This document shows positions 29,120-39,419 of a stretch of DNA of 39,419 nucleotides, one piece after another. Position 1 is the first letter of the stretch; each line of letters begins with the position of its first letter. This DNA comes from Gammaproteobacteria bacterium (lineage in GTDB: Bacteria; Pseudomonadota; Gammaproteobacteria; Methylococcales; Methylomonadaceae): NCBI GenBank assembly GCA_016874115.1, contig VGVA01000009.1:1-39419 (forward strand). Direction: 5' to 3'. The notes under the pieces were generated by a model. It had not been told where the DNA came from. It saw nothing but the letters and a program-made list of their open reading frames with translations, and did no database searches. Position numbers and translations under genes: made by a program.

Positions 29120-31912
29120 CTACATGTTGTCTATTAAATATTGTCTTTGAGCATCGATATCGGTTCCTTGAGTTTGCAGATTGATCCTGTCAATCACATT
29201 ACTCGATTGAGTATTGGGTAGATCGCCGACGGTTGAAAACTGAGCGCTATAAATTTCGTCTGCTTTAGCCCCGTCCAACGGCATGACGTTTGCCACCTTC
29301 AACATGTTGATCCATTCACTAAAATCCATTTTGCTAAAATCAAGTTGACCGATTTCTTCAATCGTGAATCCTTCGCAACTTGGCGCCAATGGCTCACCAA
29401 AATCAGTTCCCATTTGCTTCCTGCCTTGTTCCTGAAACACCCTGGCAAAAGGGCTTGAAAAACAGCAGTAAACTTGCTTCTCGGCGACACAACTGCCCAG
29501 GAATTTAGACGAACAATATGTCCCGATCTCATCGGGTTTGGTGCACATTTTTTGATTTCTGTACATCTGAAGCTTTATTTCTTCTTCCGTACAAGCAAAA
29601 ACCAATTGGACTACTAATTTTGCTATTTGATAGATCGCATAAATAATTCCGACAACCGTTACGATTGAGGACAGTAATGAGCCGGCCATTGAATAGGTTG
29701 TCGTTGCAGCTGCACCAGTACCGCTTACCGTTGCTGATAGCAATGTTGATGCAGCGGCTTCCCCGAATGTCGAAGCAATCCATTCACCCAGCCATTGCAC
29801 AACTTGCTGTTTTATCGCCTCGATCCCTAAATCCACGCCTATCTCCTCGCCTAACATCGAAACAACAGAATCAGACATCGATGTGAACGTGTCGGTAATT
29901 GCTGTATAGGCGTCTGATATTAAACTGATGGGCGTTTCAAGGACTGTCCCGCTAGTCAGTACCTGCCAGGCACCGCTCTGACCAACACCTGACAGACCAT
30001 ACGCATATATCTCTACAGAGGTGTCAGCTAAGCTCCAAGTGTTCTTCGCTAACCAGATGTAATCAATCCAACTGCCGCCTATTGGCATATTGCAGCAATC
30101 TACCGATCCTAGGATCGACAAATCCGCCATTTGACATGTGTAAGCCTCTCCTTCAAATAGCTTGCATGCTCCAGCAAGAGGATCGCAAGAGAGTTGTTTT
30201 TGTGACTCATTCAGAGTTTGCAGCGCGGTTGCTGCTTTAATGAAATCCTCATTCGATTCTTGCTTAGGATCAACGCACTCGCCGCCCATGCATCGGATTT
30301 GTGCGTCACAAATGGTATTTTCACCATTGTTTGTTGTGTCGCATGTCGATGCCGTGTCGGTCCCGCAGTCATAAGTGATGATAAAGTCTTTGCATGCTCC
30401 GGTAACAGGATCAATCAGATCATTACCATTTGCATCCTTCTCACATTCTTCTTTGATGTAAGCGCAGGAGGATAAAGATTCGCAGGTGTTATGTTCGCCA
30501 GTGTTGAAATCGTATTGAGGACATACTTGATAACCTTGATAGTCCGTGTAACAGTCCAGAGATATCGTTCCCGGTGTTCTTGTCTCCGCTCGATTACATA
30601 TTGGGTTGGGAGGCATGACAGGAGCATCCGGCAGGATGTCCGTATTATTTGAAACGTATGTCGTGTAATTGTCTGGAGTAATAGTTACGGGGCCAACCAC
30701 CATTGCATTTGTCGCATTGGAACACTGCCACCAATCCGTCGACGCCTGGTCATTCAACGAACCGGATGATACAAAGGTAGGTGCTGTTCCACCTAGTGGC
30801 CATGCGTTAAACAATCTCTCTCTGCATCCAGCTGGACTATCAATAAATTGTTCTTCTATATCGGGTTCAGCTTCTACTTTTATTCTAGCGTAACCCTCTC
30901 CATTTCCATCGACCCTGGTTTGTTGCACGAAGCTAATTAACGTATCAGCAGCAGCTTGCTTGAATGTTGATGTTATATCCAAGCCCGGATATTCATCCCA
31001 ACTGGTCCCGTGTTCGCAGCCTCCCCAACCCGATTGCCCGGTAAAAATCAATGCACCATTCATCCATATTCGGGTCTCGTCGTCATATTTGACGCGATAA
31101 ACTGTCACTCGCTTGATTTTGTCTGGTCTTAACACTCTAAACGAGACGGATTGCGTGTATGTATCGCAATTACCAGCCCAATAGTTATCACCAACTATCC
31201 CAAGATTGAGAAAGGTACAACCTATACCACAGCTCTCTATGTTTCCATCTCCTGAACCGAACCCCATGACAGGACTATAAGCAAGGGATCGGGTTACAGA
31301 ACACTTTTCTGTCTTGAGAGATTTTTTACATTGTTTCAAGTCCTCGACGTGAATAGAACATGATTTTTCACTCCAATTTGTTGTTTTTTCACAGCCGCTG
31401 AACATATCGTCGATCAAGGGCGAGGTTCGAGACAAAACGTCATCCGATTGCTTCCAAATCGGATCGTTCAGCATGTTCGGCATTGCTGTATTGGCGCCCA
31501 TGAGCGTTTGATACGCAGCGGCATGTTGTGTTGAGCCTGTACTTAAACTTTCGATGTTGCTATTAACATAGCTTCCTTGAGCGCCGGCATTTCCATAAGC
31601 TGCGGCCGCGGCATCCATTGATCCCGGCTGGATCTCTTGGAACATTTCGTTTTGTTCTATGGTTTGGCCTGAAACCAATCCATTTGTCAGTGTGATCTGA
31701 CCGGTCGAGCCATTAACATTTGGAACAGTAAAGCCTGACATGAGCGAACCGCCCAATGCCTCACCTTCAGCCGCCTGGTCGAGAAAAGCATCAGCGAATA
31801 CAGGAAATGGCACAAAGAATGCCGCTAGCGTCAATAAATAAAACGCTGCAATAGAATTGTGAAATATGCAAACAATCAGTATGTGTGCTATTGGTTTTTG
31901 GATTTTATCCAT
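29120..31912 (-). CDS. traN: F-type conjugation mating-pair stabilisation protein TraN
   Basis: 930-aa Cys-rich exported protein located after traU; C-terminal CCFSSPFARVFQEQGRKQ, GIDFxxPxC-like region. Confidence 0.88.
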   Translation of the reverse strand: MDKIQKPIAHILIVCIFHNSIAAFYLLTLAAFFVPFPVFADAFLDQAAEGEALGGSLMSGFTVPNVNGSTGQITLTNGLVSGQTIEQNEMFQEIQPGSMDAAAAAYGNAGAQGSYVNSNIESLSTGSTQHAAAYQTLMGANTAMPNMLNDPIWKQSDDVLSRTSPLIDDMFSGCEKTTNWSEKSCSIHVEDLKQCKKSLKTEKCSVTRSLAYSPVMGFGSGDGNIESCGIGCTFLNLGIVGDNYWAGNCDTYTQSVSFRVLRPDKIKRVTVYRVKYDDETRIWMNGALIFTGQSGWGGCEHGTSWDEYPGLDITSTFKQAAADTLISFVQQTRVDGNGEGYARIKVEAEPDIEEQFIDSPAGCRERLFNAWPLGGTAPTFVSSGSLNDQASTDWWQCSNATNAMVVGPVTITPDNYTTYVSNNTDILPDAPVMPPNPICNRAETRTPGTISLDCYTDYQGYQVCPQYDFNTGEHNTCESLSSCAYIKEECEKDANGNDLIDPVTGACKDFIITYDCGTDTASTCDTTNNGENTICDAQIRCMGGECVDPKQESNEDFIKAATALQTLNESQKQLSCDPLAGACKLFEGEAYTCQMADLSILGSVDCCNMPIGGSWIDYIWLAKNTWSLADTSVEIYAYGLSGVGQSGAWQVLTSGTVLETPISLISDAYTAITDTFTSMSDSVVSMLGEEIGVDLGIEAIKQQVVQWLGEWIASTFGEAAASTLLSATVSGTGAAATTTYSMAGSLLSSIVTVVGIIYAIYQIAKLVVQLVFACTEEEIKLQMYRNQKMCTKPDEIGTYCSSKFLGSCVAEKQVYCCFSSPFARVFQEQGRKQMGTDFGEPLAPSCEGFTIEEIGQLDFSKMDFSEWINMLKVANVMPLDGAKADEIYSAQFSTVGDLPNTQSSNVIDRINLQTQGTDIDAQRQYLIDNM

Positions 31913-31917
31913 GGCTT

Positions 31918-33078
31918 TTATTCTTCAATGTAACTCAGGCAGCAATCGGTATAGCGCCAGATCAGGTAAACAAAATCCTCACCTGTGCCTGGTATGTTTC
32001 GCCACTCACCCCATTTAAAGGGAGATTCTCCGATGTAGTGGCAACAGTTTTCGCCGGGTACGACCTTTTCAACCATTTCTGGCTGTCCGTTTGCTCCAAT
32101 AACTGTGTTGCCATTTGCATCTTTCTTCTCAGTCAGCATTTTTTCGGCTTCCGCTTCAGTGACTGGGAACAACATACTCATCTTGTATTGTTGCTTTGGA
32201 ACCATGGGGTAGATCGTTCCGCTACATAAAGCGTCATTGCCATAAGTTTTATGGGCTAATCCTCGCCTGTGAAGTGCAGCCAATACCCTTGCCGACAATA
32301 AACTGGTGTCTCTAGGAGGCGAGGCATCGGATGCAATGTTTCCTACGAACGGATATAAGTTGCCCCAGCATCCAGCACACCACCATAACGAAGTCATGGG
32401 CTGCGATGCAGTGGTTATGGTGCAGTCGACTGTGCAGGCCGCTACAGCCAAAGGATTAGCAAACACCACTGCTTCGGGATTGAGGAAAAAAGCCAATTCA
32501 TCAATATTCCATGTCGGGTCCAATTCAGACATGTACATCATGTCCATACTTCTAAATCCGCCCGCATTGCAGCTATTTTGAACAAACAGATCCAGGATCA
32601 TGTACAAGGGATAAGCCCAATAGTGGTAGTTGTAAAAGGTCTTATCTGTTCCGTCGCCTTCCACCTCTTTATGCCCACCCCAAAGTCTTACGCCGTTGTT
32701 GAACGATATACCGCCAAGGGCTGGAGAACAGTAAGGCTTTCTAACGACCTCAATGAGTCTTGCTGGCAGCCATGCGCTAGCCGTCATGCCAATATTTGGA
32801 ATACCGTTGTCGTCGCTACAGAAGCAAAAGCTTTCATCCGTCGCTCCATCCGGTATATCGTTATCCATATCGAAAAGTGTCATGCCCAAAAGCCTGACGG
32901 GAAACAAACAACTCCAGCAAATACCGGTAATCATTTTCTTTCCCCAAAGATCGGCATCGGGGCATAACAATTTCTCTGCTGAAATCGTATTGCTTTCGGA
33001 AGTATTGATTGTTTCTTGCGCCAAGAGTTGGCCTGAGAGCATAAGTCCAAATAGGCTCAATAGTATTTTTTGACGCAT
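31918..33078 (-). CDS. traU: F-type conjugation protein TraU
   Basis: ICWSCLFPVRLLGM, PFCFC-like CFCSD, MTSLWWCAGCWGNLYPFVG, Cys-rich. Confidence 0.92.
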   Translation of the reverse strand: MRQKILLSLFGLMLSGQLLAQETINTSESNTISAEKLLCPDADLWGKKMITGICWSCLFPVRLLGMTLFDMDNDIPDGATDESFCFCSDDNGIPNIGMTASAWLPARLIEVVRKPYCSPALGGISFNNGVRLWGGHKEVEGDGTDKTFYNYHYWAYPLYMILDLFVQNSCNAGGFRSMDMMYMSELDPTWNIDELAFFLNPEAVVFANPLAVAACTVDCTITTASQPMTSLWWCAGCWGNLYPFVGNIASDASPPRDTSLLSARVLAALHRRGLAHKTYGNDALCSGTIYPMVPKQQYKMSMLFPVTEAEAEKMLTEKKDANGNTVIGANGQPEMVEKVVPGENCCHYIGESPFKWGEWRNIPGTGEDFVYLIWRYTDCCLSYIEE

Positions 33079-34262
33079 TAGTGAACCTCGCCGCTTGCAA
33101 GTTCTTTGGCGACAACGTGATCGCCTTGACCTTCAATTACGGTTGGCAACACCTCTAGCTTGAACCGGTCCACGATGCTTTTATTGAGCTTGTACAAAGG
33201 ACCGTTCACGAAATCGCCGGTCTCGTTGTAATGGCTCCAGCCACGCTCATTGTCGATCTTGGAAAACAGGTAGATGACTGGTTTACCCTTTTTGAGGAAT
33301 TCGTCTCCGGCCTTTTTGGCGATTTCAACCTGTTTTTTACTGGTGGCATCAAATATGATGTAGGCATGCCGCATTGGCATCATCGCTTGCGGATTGATCC
33401 TGTCGCCTTTTTTGATAATTAATTGTCCGTCGGGATGAAAAATATCCTGCGTCGAAACGATTGTCATGTCGATAGCCCTTTCCCTGGTCTTTTCGGCCGG
33501 TCGTAAATTAAATTCGTCTTGTTTCTTCCAGAAATTTGCGATGGCTTCAGTTTTTTGTTTTTCCCAATCGACATTTGCCGCCCTGCGCTGGATTTCTTCA
33601 ATCATGTCAGGCTCTAAAATGCCGTAAATTGGTCCCCGTTGGCCTTGATCTCCGGGTTCTTGCTTGCTTAACCAATCGAATCCCGGTAAACCACGTGCAC
33701 TACGTGTTTTTCCTTCTGCATCGGTCTCGACTATTGTTGGTACTGCTGTAATATTGAATCTTGTAAACAATGTGGGATCGATGACAGCACCTGGGACTGG
33801 CTTTAATTTCTGCACAATTGGCAAAAGCTTTTTGGTGATTGACCCCGTGTTTTGGTCTTTCTCAACTCCTCGAAAAACCAGTATCGACTTGGTAGCCGCT
33901 GCTTCTTCAGCCGCAGCTTTCATTTCATGCATAGGCATGCCGAACGAAACGAAAATCCAGCGCCCTTGCACAGCCTGAGCAAGCGACCGCTTACCCATGT
34001 CAATGTCGTTATCAGAACCCGGATTTACGATTCGACTGCCTTCCCGAAGTATCTTTTCTAAAGATGGACTTAAGTGCATGGGTTTGGTTTTCAACCAATC
34101 GGGCAATTGTCGATTCATATTGGGCTGCTGTTGTTTAAGGAGTTCCTTTAGAAAAAAGTCGTCTTCTCCCGCCATAACGGAAGAAGACGACAGGTGCAGC
34201 ATCACGACTGCAAGGAAGCGACTAGAAAATAGGGTACGCGCGACCAATGACATCTTTTTCAT
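33078..34262 (-). CDS. traW: TrbC-TraW fusion protein of F-type T4SS
   Basis: N-terminal TrbC-like IFVSFGMP...AVPTIV followed by TraW-like IYGILEPDMIEEIQRRA...GEVH. Confidence 0.87.
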   Translation of the reverse strand: MKKMSLVARTLFSSRFLAVVMLHLSSSSVMAGEDDFFLKELLKQQQPNMNRQLPDWLKTKPMHLSPSLEKILREGSRIVNPGSDNDIDMGKRSLAQAVQGRWIFVSFGMPMHEMKAAAEEAAATKSILVFRGVEKDQNTGSITKKLLPIVQKLKPVPGAVIDPTLFTRFNITAVPTIVETDAEGKTRSARGLPGFDWLSKQEPGDQGQRGPIYGILEPDMIEEIQRRAANVDWEKQKTEAIANFWKKQDEFNLRPAEKTRERAIDMTIVSTQDIFHPDGQLIIKKGDRINPQAMMPMRHAYIIFDATSKKQVEIAKKAGDEFLKKGKPVIYLFSKIDNERGWSHYNETGDFVNGPLYKLNKSIVDRFKLEVLPTVIEGQGDHVVAKELASGEVH

Positions 34263-34779
34263 CTACCAGTCCAAGAAGGTTATAACGAGAATCGAGGCTG
34301 TATTCATGATCACCGGCCACGAAGTATTTACCCAATTGGATCGTATTTTTCCCATCATGCAACTCATCATTTGGAAATAATTTTTTGAGGCTAAGACCAA
34401 CTTCTTTACCGACGAGCGTCCGGTCGCCCACGGTGAAATCCCGACCTTTCTTAGTAACAATTTTGCCTGGACCAGCGAGTAGGCGTTTAGCGAAGATATA
34501 TCCATCTGGATAGGGATCGCCGTTGTGCCATTTGAATGCTATAAAGCCCCCGGTTTCGACATTTTTATCAAGACAAATCAGGAACAGCGTGTAAGGCAGG
34601 CTAGGCGTTTGATTGATAGCCAAACGGTAGTTGGCGTGTATTACGCCATACAATAAAATCAACAATACCCAAGTAATCGAATGCGACTTAAGGTGGTTGA
34701 CTAAAATATGGCCGAATGTCTTTGTTCGTTCGATAAAGACATGTATCGTTAATGGTTCGTCTCTATTCAATGTTGACAT
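34222..34779 (-). CDS. TrhF/TraF-type S26 signal-peptidase-like protein
   Basis: One TM, SLPYTLFLICLDK and IFAKRLLAGPGKIV, YFVAGDHEYSLDSRY. Confidence 0.85.
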   Translation of the reverse strand: MSTLNRDEPLTIHVFIERTKTFGHILVNHLKSHSITWVLLILLYGVIHANYRLAINQTPSLPYTLFLICLDKNVETGGFIAFKWHNGDPYPDGYIFAKRLLAGPGKIVTKKGRDFTVGDRTLVGKEVGLSLKKLFPNDELHDGKNTIQLGKYFVAGDHEYSLDSRYNLLGLVDEKDVIGRAYPIF

Positions 34780-35065
34780 AAGCTTCCTCTGGAGCGCTCA
34801 GGACAGACTGCGCGTCGAGAATGACCACGCCGCGCTGGATTAACTCTTCAGTCGATGATTTAACTTTCGTCATAAGAGCTTTGGCGTCTTCTTCTGTTTT
34901 AGCCTGGTCTGTTTCTACAGCTTTTTTGACTAAGGCTTGCACATCGACAATGGCAATTTGTGCCGGCACTGGTGAAAAAGAGGCGGCGAAATAGCCGCCC
35001 AAAGCACCAGAGAGGACACAACAAAGTAATAAAACCAGCATTTTTATTGGGGTTAGAGAAATCAT
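34763..35065 (-). CDS. TrbI-like small T4SS membrane protein
   Basis: N-terminal TM then IAIVDVQALVKKAV...VVILDAQSVL; overlaps trhF start. Confidence 0.6.
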   Translation of the reverse strand: MISLTPIKMLVLLLCCVLSGALGGYFAASFSPVPAQIAIVDVQALVKKAVETDQAKTEEDAKALMTKVKSSTEELIQRGVVILDAQSVLSAPEEAYVNIE

Positions 35066-35643
35066 GCGTCGAGCCCGTACATCCTTGCGAATTCAGCAAT
35101 GCCGCCTTTAACCCCGCGACCAACAGCTTTGAATTTCCAGTCACCCTGGTAGCGGTAGAACTCTCCAAAAATCATTGAAGTGTAAATTGCCGTATCTCCC
35201 TCTTCACTTAGGTCGTAACGAGTAACTTCTTCTTGAGTATCTTTATTGACTAGTCGTACAAATGCATTAAGGACTTGGCCAAAATTTTGTTTGAGTTTGT
35301 CAGCGTCGTGAATGGATACAAAAACGATTAGTTTTTGAATTTCATCCGGCACTTTGTCCAAAAATACGTGAATAGACTCATCGTCGCCTTCGCCGGCGCC
35401 AGTTCTGTTATCACCCGCATGATTCACCGAACCGCAAAGCGACTTCTTATTGTTGTAAAAAATGAGATCTTTCTCATTTTTAGCCTTTTCGTTGGGCCCC
35501 ACCATTAGAATGGAGGCATCTAAATCAAAGGTTTCCTGGTCACTCTCTCTAACATCCCAGCCAAGGCCGACGATGATGTTTTTTAATGAAGAGTCCGTTT
35601 TTGACAGGTTGATATTCCCGCCTTTGGTCAAACTTAAAGCCAT
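35062..35643 (-). CDS. terD: TerD-family tellurium/stress protein
   Basis: MALSLTKGGNINLSK, VGLGWDVR, FDLDASILMV, GEGDDESIHVFLDKVP. Confidence 0.95.
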   Translation of the reverse strand: MALSLTKGGNINLSKTDSSLKNIIVGLGWDVRESDQETFDLDASILMVGPNEKAKNEKDLIFYNNKKSLCGSVNHAGDNRTGAGEGDDESIHVFLDKVPDEIQKLIVFVSIHDADKLKQNFGQVLNAFVRLVNKDTQEEVTRYDLSEEGDTAIYTSMIFGEFYRYQGDWKFKAVGRGVKGGIAEFARMYGLDA

Positions 35644-35663: not shown

Positions 35664-36725
35664 TTATGAATTGTTGTGAAGGTTGGGATAACGCTGCTTG
35701 AGCGATTCTGGAGCAACAAGCAATGCCTGTTGTTTGTTGTATGAATTTGAGGACCAGAGAGATAGACCAATCAAGACGGCACCGGTTACTCCTGTTATCA
35801 CTTCTGGTATCTCATGAACGATGCTGACCAGCATGAGCATTGCCAATGCGAGAATGGCGTAATGAGCGCCGTGTTCGAGGTAGATGTATTGATCGAGTAC
35901 GCCTTTTTTGACCAGGTAAATGGTCAGTGATCTAACGTATAGAGCTCCAATCCCCAAGCCAAGCGTGATGATTTGAATTTTTTGAGATATTGCGAAAGCT
36001 CCAATGACACCATCGAATGAGAATGAGGCGTCGAGCAATTCAAGATACAAAAACACAATGAGGCCACCCCGTTTAGCGGTTTTCGTGATTGACATTTGAT
36101 CTTCGGAAACCGCAAACAGACTATCCAAACTGCTCACGAATCCGTAAAGGAATATCCCCCAAATGCCACCTAACAAAACCGTGGACTTGATTTCAGAAGA
36201 TACCGTGGTGCTAATGATCAATAAACAAGCGAGAGAGATTGTCGTATTTACAGCATCGATTTTTCCTAGCGATTGAAGACGTTTTTCGATGCCCCCGATC
36301 CATAAGACATCACGCGTCTCGTCAAGCATAAAGCTCAATCCGACCATCAACAGAAACATGCCGCCGAGCGATGCGATCATGGGATGCGCTTGATGTAAGT
36401 GATACGCATACTGCTCGGGAGAATTTATCACCAACAAAATCACGTCATGAGAGCTTAATCCTGTTGCAAATGACACCACCATGACTGGAAAAACAAGGCG
36501 CATCCCAAATACAGCAATCAACATGCCCCAAGTAAGGAAACGTTTCTGCCAAATCGGCTCCATGTTTTTTAGCACACCGGCATTCACGACGGCGTTATCA
36601 ACCGAGAGGCTTATCTCCAGTATCGCCAGCACTAAGACTAGAAATGCATCTTTTATCCCATCTGTTACAAAAACCCCGATCAAGGCCAGCGTCAAGATAG
36701 CGTGAGAACCATAAAAACTACGCAC
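35664..36725 (-). CDS. TerC-like/DUF475 integral membrane protein
   Basis: LAILEISLSVDNAVVNAGVL, SLDSLFAVSEDQ, ELLDASFSFDGVIGAFAI, many TM segments. Confidence 0.9.
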   Translation of the reverse strand: MRSFYGSHAILTLALIGVFVTDGIKDAFLVLVLAILEISLSVDNAVVNAGVLKNMEPIWQKRFLTWGMLIAVFGMRLVFPVMVVSFATGLSSHDVILLVINSPEQYAYHLHQAHPMIASLGGMFLLMVGLSFMLDETRDVLWIGGIEKRLQSLGKIDAVNTTISLACLLIISTTVSSEIKSTVLLGGIWGIFLYGFVSSLDSLFAVSEDQMSITKTAKRGGLIVFLYLELLDASFSFDGVIGAFAISQKIQIITLGLGIGALYVRSLTIYLVKKGVLDQYIYLEHGAHYAILALAMLMLVSIVHEIPEVITGVTGAVLIGLSLWSSNSYNKQQALLVAPESLKQRYPNLHNNS

Positions 36726-36996: not shown

Positions 36997-37278
36997 GATC
37001 GTTTCCTGCCCCCCCCTAAATGCGGCACAACCCGGAAGGACATGAGAAGGATGGATTGACCTCTAGTCGATCGAACGCCGACTCGTGATCGATATTTTCA
37101 TGTTTTGTCAACAAGTTTATTTGATTGCATTATTTTGGAGTAACTAGCATTTGGGATGTGTGACCCTACATACCTTGCGCATCATGGCTTGCGCGGGTTA
37201 TTGCCCTTTTGGGTGATTTTTCGCGCTATGGCGTTTTTAATGCTTCAGCCAAAATTCACGCAAAAATAATAAGGAGAT

Positions 37279-37569
37279 GTGGTTAAAGTTATGAATCTTG
37301 TTAACGATGATTTAAAAGCTATCAACTTCCAATTTTTGATGCTGGCCAGAGAATGCGCCCGGCATAATCCCATGGAGGCGATTTGGATGTTTAATCTTAA
37401 TGACATAGAAATCGAGAAAATTGCCAGCATGACGCTGGAAGAAATCAAAAGCCTGTCTGAATGTGGCAGGGCTGTCTTTAGAATGCCGTCCGTCATGCCA
37501 ACGCCGCATGGTATTACATCAAGCATAGCAGCGTCCTTATTACCAATTGCGTCGCTTGCACAGGCTTAA
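37279..37569 (+). CDS. FlhD-like transcriptional activator subunit
   Basis: NFQFLMLARECARHNPMEAIWMFNLNDIEIEKIASMTLEEIKSLSECGRAVFRMP matches the FlhD fold pattern; followed by an flhC-like gene. Confidence 0.85.
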   Translation: MVKVMNLVNDDLKAINFQFLMLARECARHNPMEAIWMFNLNDIEIEKIASMTLEEIKSLSECGRAVFRMPSVMPTPHGITSSIAASLLPIASLAQA

Positions 37570-37579
37570 AGGGGGTTAA

Positions 37580-38305
37580 GTGATAAAGGAATCTCACTTG
37601 CGGCTTACACCCAAAGAGACAGACATTTTAGGTCTAAAACGCAAACTAGATTTGGCAAAAGGCATCATTGAAAAAGGGGGGAGACCTTCGATTGTGAGAG
37701 CTGTTTGTCAGATATCAAAAGCATCCGCTCTTCAATTCCATAAAGAGATCCATGGACAAGGACCATCAGCCGGTCTACTGCCCTATGACCCTGACTGGAT
37801 AGTCAAAGCACCACAAAATTGCCTACATGCTTCAATTTATTTCAATGTTTTTCAAACGATTTCCCAAAAGGCAATCAATGGTGAGAAACAAGATATGTCT
37901 CCTATCGGCAAAGTGGTGAACAATGAAATTAGCGGCCCTGAGCCAAGAAAAAATATCGTAGACGAAGCCTCAAAGCATGCGACTAAAGGCGAAATCTTCC
38001 TTGCTTCCTATACGCTCTATGAGCAGATTATTGGGGGCAATCCTAAGATACTAAATATCAATCGAGCTTGGCACATTGGACAGCAGATTGCCATGTCATA
38101 CATCTGTGGAATTAGCTGCGCCCGATGCAATTCGTCTTATGTTTCCATTCGAGACTACCCTGAACTTTATAAATTTTGTCCTCTATGCGACTCAATTACT
38201 GATTCAAGTGGGCGTCAAAAATGGAAAACGCCTAATCTGAACGTTAACAAGAAAAACGCTAACGATATATTTTCAAAATATACGTTTCATTCGGAGGCGT
38301 TGTGA
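37580..38305 (+). CDS. FlhC-like transcriptional activator subunit (SetC/AcaC-type)
   Basis: FHKEIHGQGPSAGLLPYDPDWIV...NCLHASIYFNVF, INRAWHIGQQIA, zinc site CARCNSSYV...CPLC. Confidence 0.88.
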   Translation: MIKESHLRLTPKETDILGLKRKLDLAKGIIEKGGRPSIVRAVCQISKASALQFHKEIHGQGPSAGLLPYDPDWIVKAPQNCLHASIYFNVFQTISQKAINGEKQDMSPIGKVVNNEISGPEPRKNIVDEASKHATKGEIFLASYTLYEQIIGGNPKILNINRAWHIGQQIAMSYICGISCARCNSSYVSIRDYPELYKFCPLCDSITDSSGRQKWKTPNLNVNKKNANDIFSKYTFHSEAL

Positions 38306-38916
38306 TTTTGTTAAAGAAGATATATAGACGAAAAATGCTTAATTCGGAAGGATCCAATCTTTCCCGGATCATTACTGAACGATTGTTGACTTCTGATCAG
38401 ATTTGTCGAGTAGATTTCGATTCAATCGATAATGTAACTGTAGTGTTCTTTCAAGATTTTTTGTTCCCGCTGGTTCTTGAGTTTGGGAGCGAAACCATAA
38501 AAAGCAGGGTTCATTTGATGAATTTGTCAGCTGAACATCATTTAGCCTACGAAGAAGCTTTTTTAAAGTCCTCCCAATATTTGGACAGGGTTGCAGCTCG
38601 GGATACCAAAACATTTGGCGACATATCTGATATCACTTGTGATTTACTTATTAAAGCCAGGGAATTGTCGCGCAGTGATCCATCTGCTGCTCATATTATT
38701 TTTGGGTTGGGGTCTGGAATGATTGAATCTCTTGCGAATATGGATATTGAACAAATTCGTCGAATTTCGTCTTCTGGCGTTATTTGTTTTGAACCACGAT
38801 TTACCGCAGAGTTCGCATCGAAACTGGCTGCCTTACAGGGAGATGAGATCGACGTATTTTTGAATGTCATCGGTAGTATAGACATGGAAGGGGTCTATGA
38901 GTCTGAATATCATTAA
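38302..38916 (+). CDS. Fusion protein: N-terminal STAS-like (DUF4325) domain and C-terminal FlhD-like domain
   Basis: N-term CRVDFDSIDNVTVVFFQDFLFPLVLEFGSETIKSRVHLMNLSAEHHLAYEEAF; C-term DLLIKARELSRSDPSAAHIIFGLGSGMIESLANMDIEQIRRISSSGVICFEPRF. Confidence 0.8.
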   Translation: MILLKKIYRRKMLNSEGSNLSRIITERLLTSDQICRVDFDSIDNVTVVFFQDFLFPLVLEFGSETIKSRVHLMNLSAEHHLAYEEAFLKSSQYLDRVAARDTKTFGDISDITCDLLIKARELSRSDPSAAHIIFGLGSGMIESLANMDIEQIRRISSSGVICFEPRFTAEFASKLAALQGDEIDVFLNVIGSIDMEGVYESEYH

Positions 38917-39218
38917 TCGCTATGCTATCGCCATTGAGCTTCTGTCTCTTGAAGCAAGAATTAACATCATTTCAGATGAGACAGGGTTGTCACCTAAGAT
39001 TCTACGCAAAGCGTTTGTCGATATGCACAAACGATCCCCACCGAGAGGACCTTTAAAATTCAACTCGAATTTTATATATAAGAGCTTCCTAAGAACGAAG
39101 GAAGCCACAGTATTTGTGTTCTTTTTTCGCATTGAAATCCATGATGAGTTTATTCAGCGATGTATTAACGCGTATCGCCGATACGAAGCATATATATTGA
39201 CTGTTTATAAAGTCAGAC
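38897..39218 (+). pseudogene. Second FlhC-like gene, truncated by IS21-family insertion (ORF runs to 39274 through IS sequence)
   Basis: AIAIELLSLEARINIISDETGLSPKILRKAFVDMHKRSPPRGPLKFNSNFIYKSFLRTKEATVFVFFFR is FlhC-like; zinc-binding C-terminus missing. Confidence 0.82.
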
Positions 39219-39274
39219 TGTCCGGCGTCAATTATCTTTGCCGGTTTGACGTCAATTACTCTGGCCGGTTTTAG
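39219..39274. repeat. IS21-family terminus with 24-bp tandem repeats
   Basis: TGTCCGGC-GTCAATTATCTTTGCCGGTTTGAC-GTCAATTACTCTGGCCGGTTTTAG. Confidence 0.75.
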
Positions 39275-39287
39275 TTTAAAAAATGGG

Positions 39288-39419
39288 TTACTTTTTTACG
39301 CGTTGTTTTTTCCGATAGCTTTCTCCTTCAATTTCAATAATGGTGGCATGGTGGATAATTCGGTCAATTGCCGCAACGGTCATCATGGTGTCAGGAAAGA
39401 TTTGATCCCATTGGCTGAA
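39288..39419 (-). mobile_element. istB: IS21-family helper ATPase IstB, C-terminal end (partial)
   Basis: Minus frame FSQWDQIFPDTMMTVAAIDRIIHHATIIEIEGESYRKKQRVKK*. Confidence 0.93.

Follow-up and report, generated by a model that had tools for sequence, protein, structure and literature searches.

A STAS-like domain fused to FlhD in a tandem FlhDC-type cassette of conjugative elements in Methylococcales

The window analyzed here is an entire contig of 39,419 bp from a 2.48-Mb draft genome that its relatives place in Methylococcales. Four genes lie at its right end, all on the forward strand, in the order FlhD1-FlhC1-[STAS-FlhD2]-FlhC2. The first encodes a stand-alone FlhD-like protein of 96 aa (FlhD1, 37279–37569; PF05247, E = 4.5e-4, below the cut-off) and the second an FlhC-like protein of 241 aa with a Cys4 motif (FlhC1, 37580–38305; PF05280, E = 1.6e-19). 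The third gene (38302–38916) is an intact ORF of 204 aa, in which a STAS-like (DUF4325) domain precedes an FlhD domain; its GTG start codon overlaps the stop codon of FlhC1. Only the N-terminal ~107 residues are present of the fourth gene product (FlhC2, 38897–39221; PF05280, E = 1.8e-7), the frame of which then enters an insertion. FlhC1, the fusion and FlhC2 overlap by a few bases and are therefore probably co-translated. NCBIfam equivalog cut-offs for FlhD and FlhC were not reached by the proteins of this cassette.

Divergent from the cassette, on the reverse strand, are genes for TerD (35062–35643) and a TerC-like/DUF475 protein (35664–36725), which are conserved neighbors of the cassette in plasmid-type elements. 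F-type conjugation genes encoding TraN, TraU, a TrbC-like protein and an S26 peptidase are also on the reverse strand (29120–34779; PF06986, PF06834), and their order is the same as on the annotated plasmid NZ_CP091425. These conjugation genes share the contig with genes for NiFe hydrogenase subunits, Hyp maturation proteins and Rnf-Nqr subunits, which Pfam places in the left part of the window (about 1–22 kb).

Upstream of FlhD1 lies a probably non-coding block (37153–37272, forward strand) that is strongly conserved among three elements: it shares 96.9% identity across 130 bp with L005/L051, and 75% across 80 nt with L052, which is more distant. The block is a candidate operator or leader. 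A 37-codon leader peptide was considered for it, but the reading frame has stops in L052 and the block is more likely non-coding; no Rfam match was obtained for it. A proposed shared activator motif, TTTCGCGCTATGGCGTTTT, was set aside, as it occurs in a single copy in the window. The block contains a direct repeat, CATACCTTGCGC/CATGGCTTGCGC.

Profile searches and structural models were used to assess the two halves of the fusion. The STAS-like domain covers residues 1–98 (38302–38595, forward strand) and the FlhD domain (FlhD2) about residues 104–190 (38611–38871, forward strand). In the 204-aa protein, Pfam places DUF4325 at residues 30–78 (E = 1.4e-3) and FlhD at residues 104–170 (E = 0.026), both scores being below the curated cut-offs (18.8 bits versus 23 for DUF4325). 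When the STAS part was searched alone, PF14213 was matched with an E-value of 4.4e-4. Twenty-five of 26 aligned relatives match DUF4325 (best E = 1.8e-12, up to about 50 bits). The fusion to FlhD sets these proteins apart from the DUF4325 family, and FlhD itself is matched by 23 of the 26 (best E = 4.3e-7). A profile built from the fusion family matched the FlhD structures 5hxg, 8j56 and 1g8e (E = 3e-6 to 1e-5) as well as the STAS protein VapS of Escherichia (structure 9z7o, E = 7.7e-6).

The model of the full-length fusion is modest (pTM 0.48). The ten best Foldseek matches of its FlhD half are nevertheless FlhD only (probability 1.00, E = 0.01–0.25), and the C-terminus is matched to FlhD structures both by profile and by Foldseek. 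The C-terminal half had been predicted to resemble the FlhD-like protein two genes upstream, and this likeness was confirmed by direct comparison with FlhD1 (34% identity over 59 aa, E = 0.0015) and by the family profile (E = 1.4e-9). For the N-terminus, an AlphaFold2 model of the STAS half alone is confident (pLDDT 92.7, pTM 0.84); its Foldseek matches include RsbS (the best, TM 0.54), RsbV, SpoIIAA and the STAS domain of prestin, none of which is significant by E-value. The original prediction had given about 120 residues to a DUF4325-like first half. The STAS-like part is shorter, with ~98 residues. The fusion is a genuine architecture: it is intact across dozens of loci, which rules out a gene-call or assembly artifact as its source. 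In-frame stops that appeared in some relatives are not real and came from alignments extended beyond the natural stop.

The arrangement seen in the window is conserved. FlhC1, the fusion and FlhC2 are neighbors on one strand in about 30 of 42 loci (with the FlhC2 of L003 taken from separate evidence), usually with FlhD1 in front. In a tree of FlhC proteins, the FlhC1 and FlhC2 sequences fall into distinct clades (support 100/99 and 98/99, respectively), which argues that the cassette is an old two-pair set and no recent accident. In four loci (L056, L078, L079 and L082), the fusion and FlhC2 are present and FlhD1/FlhC1 were not detected upstream, so a mixed complex would not be obligatory. Three loci (L081, L084 and L085) have N-truncated copies of the fusion. 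In L069–L071 and L076 an extra FlhD-FlhC pair adjoins the cassette on the opposite strand, giving three D-C pairs per locus; that of L076 is next to an SLT transglycosylase. A protein of 331–356 aa with no Pfam or NCBIfam match is encoded upstream of the cassette, in divergent orientation, in L060 (7396–8466) and 13 other loci. Upstream of the cassettes in L088 (5403–7055) and five other loci is a gene for a 551-aa HATPase_c_3 protein, which is not RsbW-like; some of these loci also have RadC-like and DUF4942 genes close to it.

In the window itself, the fourth gene is damaged. The alignment of FlhC2 to its intact relatives breaks at about 39221, and the remaining sequence (39222–39419, reverse strand) is the end of an IS21-family element, comprising the C-terminus of istB (IstB_IS21, E = 4.1e-13), inside which the contig ends. 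This 198-bp end occurs at five places in the genome (the window and contigs C66, C64, C16 and C112 of G000), several of them at contig ends, and the break at the right end of the window is therefore a repeat artifact. FlhC2 is intact in most relatives; that of L005/L051 is 155 aa long and has the Cys4 motif. A search of the same genome, which is incomplete, for the rest of flhC2 together with xis/int found nothing. When the window was examined for the partner expected of a SetCD/AcaCD-type activator, FlhC2 was not intact, being cut by the insertion sequence at ~39222. In this genome only the D1-C1 pair and the fusion are intact, and the fusion's likely partner, FlhC2, is truncated.

Matches were found in 43 of 201 Methylococcales genomes, about 31 of which match across both halves. 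No match covering both halves turned up outside Methylococcales, either among 369 Gammaproteobacteria genomes or in a further sample of 398 Pseudomonadota genomes (about 765 together); the only hits there were partial matches or single FlhD-like or DUF4325 proteins. A search of viral contigs and phage records gave no relatives. In PLSDB, the fusion is present on two Methylococcaceae plasmids, on one of which it is labelled 'DUF4325 domain-containing protein' beside an 'FlhC family transcriptional regulator'. Of the 32 cassettes on contigs of megabase size, 28 have TraU no more than 100 kb away, compared with a mean of 3.2 and a maximum of 10 at random, and integrases and excisionase- or AlpA-like genes adjoin many copies. 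The setting with the best support is that of a regulatory cassette carried by conjugative plasmids and ICE-like islands of Methylococcales. Gene order and the linkage to TraU bear out the setting first proposed for the fusion, an FlhDC-type regulatory cassette on conjugative elements.

The cassette can be compared with AcaCD of IncA/C plasmids and SetCD of SXT/R391 ICEs, which likewise consist of an FlhD-like and an FlhC-like protein on F-type conjugative elements. AcaCD acts as a master activator resembling FlhDC, and its two subunits co-purify (PMC4207636). As in AcaCD and SetCD, the D subunit precedes the C subunit here, and an FlhD-homologous D subunit is encoded beside an FlhC-homologous C subunit. 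The nearest unfused relative found for the FlhD half is a SetD-like protein consisting of a single 99-aa FlhD domain and followed by a SetC-like FlhC; in contrast, the cassette has two D-C pairs, the second D carrying a STAS domain. The SetC-like FlhC is 34.2% identical to AcaC, which equals the published identity of SetC and AcaC (PMC4207636). AcaD (202 aa) is nearly as long as the fusion (204 aa) and was considered as an already known STAS-FlhD protein, but its N-terminal half has no DUF4325 match and is not STAS. Of the AcaD copies of IncC plasmids (L138, 533–1138; L139, 530–1135), one has an FlhD match in its N-terminal half (E = 0.0015), and AcaD may be a tandem FlhD repeat. Flagellar FlhDC shares the FlhD fold and the Cys4 motif of FlhC, but the window cassette is not near flagellar genes.

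Literature searches for DUF4325 with FlhD, or for a STAS domain with FlhD and a transcriptional activator, returned no description. The NCBI label reads only 'DUF4325 domain-containing', in agreement with the original prediction, which knew of no described SetD, AcaD or FlhD protein of this architecture. The fusion is a real, conserved and apparently undescribed architecture within a known kind of regulator; its setting is ordinary and its make-up is new. FlhDC-type master activators govern the transfer of important mobile elements, and signal reception is known for few of them. The fusion adds a D-subunit architecture that is widespread, apparently undescribed and part of a paired cassette. 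In the same year, STAS domains joined to DNA-binding regulators proved to control immune operons, and the fusion provides a concrete, testable case of STAS modules moved onto the control of conjugation in methanotrophs.

On balance, the fusion probably supplies the second D subunit in a cassette of two tandem FlhDC-type activator pairs, with the STAS domain acting as a constitutive docking or assembly module and not as a phospho-switch. By analogy with SetCD and AcaCD, an FlhD-FlhC heteromer would turn on the genes for transfer and excision. The FlhD2 half would pair with FlhC2, perhaps mixing with D1/C1, and the N-terminal STAS domain would serve in protein docking or assembly, perhaps, by loose analogy, standing in for the ~100 additional residues at the N-terminus of AcaD. 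An unlikely alternative is that the STAS domain is a signal input, bound by an unlinked protein of the host or of the element, whether or not phosphorylation is involved (Thr46 being a possible site), so that the assembly of FlhD2-FlhC2 is timed.

The original prediction had viewed the fusion as a candidate partner-switch input. In the classical form of such a switch, a GHKL kinase encoded elsewhere would phosphorylate or bind the STAS domain and gate FlhD2-FlhC2, as CapK does with CapS. The precedent for a STAS domain on a DNA-binding regulator is proven: CapS, described in 2026, joins STAS to a DNA-binding domain and, like VapS, a sequence relative of the fusion, is paired with a GHKL kinase that phosphorylates an absolutely conserved Ser/Thr (PMC13373217). 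CapS and VapS also resemble the fusion in having STAS N-terminal to the regulatory part, but that part is FlhD in the fusion versus a wHTH or a toxin inhibitor, the phospho-serine is not conserved and no kinase adjoins. In the profile alignment, VapS Ser48 (residue 66 of the chain if 18 tag residues are assumed) aligns ungapped with Val47 of the fusion. This column is Ser/Thr in just 4 of the 38 family members with a letter there; Gln occupies it in 17, and it is mostly Gln, Val, Pro, Ala or Glu. The preceding position, 46, is Thr or Ser in 33 of the 40 members that have a residue there, so a shifted site is conceivable. HATPase_c_2 proteins are encoded by the carrier genomes examined. A profile built from twelve HATPase_c_2 proteins, run against 931 ORFs within ~10 kb of the 42 loci, detected no GHKL kinase of the RsbW/CapK kind; its only matches were proteins of sensor-histidine-kinase size, about 440–765 aa, in nine of the 42 loci. 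Of the 30 carrier genomes searched, only 4 have proteins joining a kinase-like part to DUF4325 (HTH-GHKL-DUF4325), and these are unlinked to the cassette. Since the phospho-site is lost and no such kinase adjoins, a phospho-switch is not supported, and we regard the classical partner switch as quite unlikely.

The HTH-GHKL-DUF4325 proteins (L089, L090, L091 and L097) are 335–347 aa long and carry a GHKL ATPase together with an HTH-like part at the N-terminus and, at the C-terminus, a DUF4325 that has Gln at the phospho-site. The I-T-Q-G-F signature of Q-type fusions resembles I-G-Q-A-F in these proteins and V-T-Q-S-Y in one stand-alone DUF4325 protein, and the shared Gln suggests a Q-type subfamily. 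A stand-alone DUF4325 protein with a VapS-like FASPFF motif is encoded in L092 on the reverse strand (1384–1758) and is followed by a 206-aa gene (764–1384); the two are possibly a VapSC-type pair in genome G140.

The STAS-FlhD subunit could instead be an anti-activator that competes with FlhD1 for FlhC and holds transfer off until needed. In favor of this role, a complete D1-C1 pair is co-encoded in most loci. However, nearly every copy of the fusion has its own FlhC2 behind it, with the Cys4 motif intact, and this points to a working pair; the loci that carry the fusion and FlhC2 without D1-C1 also speak against this role. We consider it as improbable as the partner switch, and continue to favor an activator subunit with a docking STAS domain.

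Selection on the gene was estimated from pairwise dN/dS by a simple counting method, in which numbers are small for close pairs and dS is saturated in two distant pairs. Where computable, dN/dS was 0.07–0.38 for the STAS half, 0.01–0.11 for the FlhD half and 0.07–0.19 for the whole fusion gene. Both halves are under purifying selection, stricter in the FlhD half, and the STAS half evolves faster. That the fusion is decaying or passenger sequence with a STAS part without a role, as the interrupted flhC2 of the window and the N-truncated copies might indicate, is very unlikely given purifying selection on the STAS half in most tested pairs and conservation of the fusion down to ~30% identity across about 30 genomes. 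Within the STAS domain, residues D38, L57, E60, G62 and N74 are conserved in the fusion family, a pattern compatible with a kept fold and perhaps with a kept interface.
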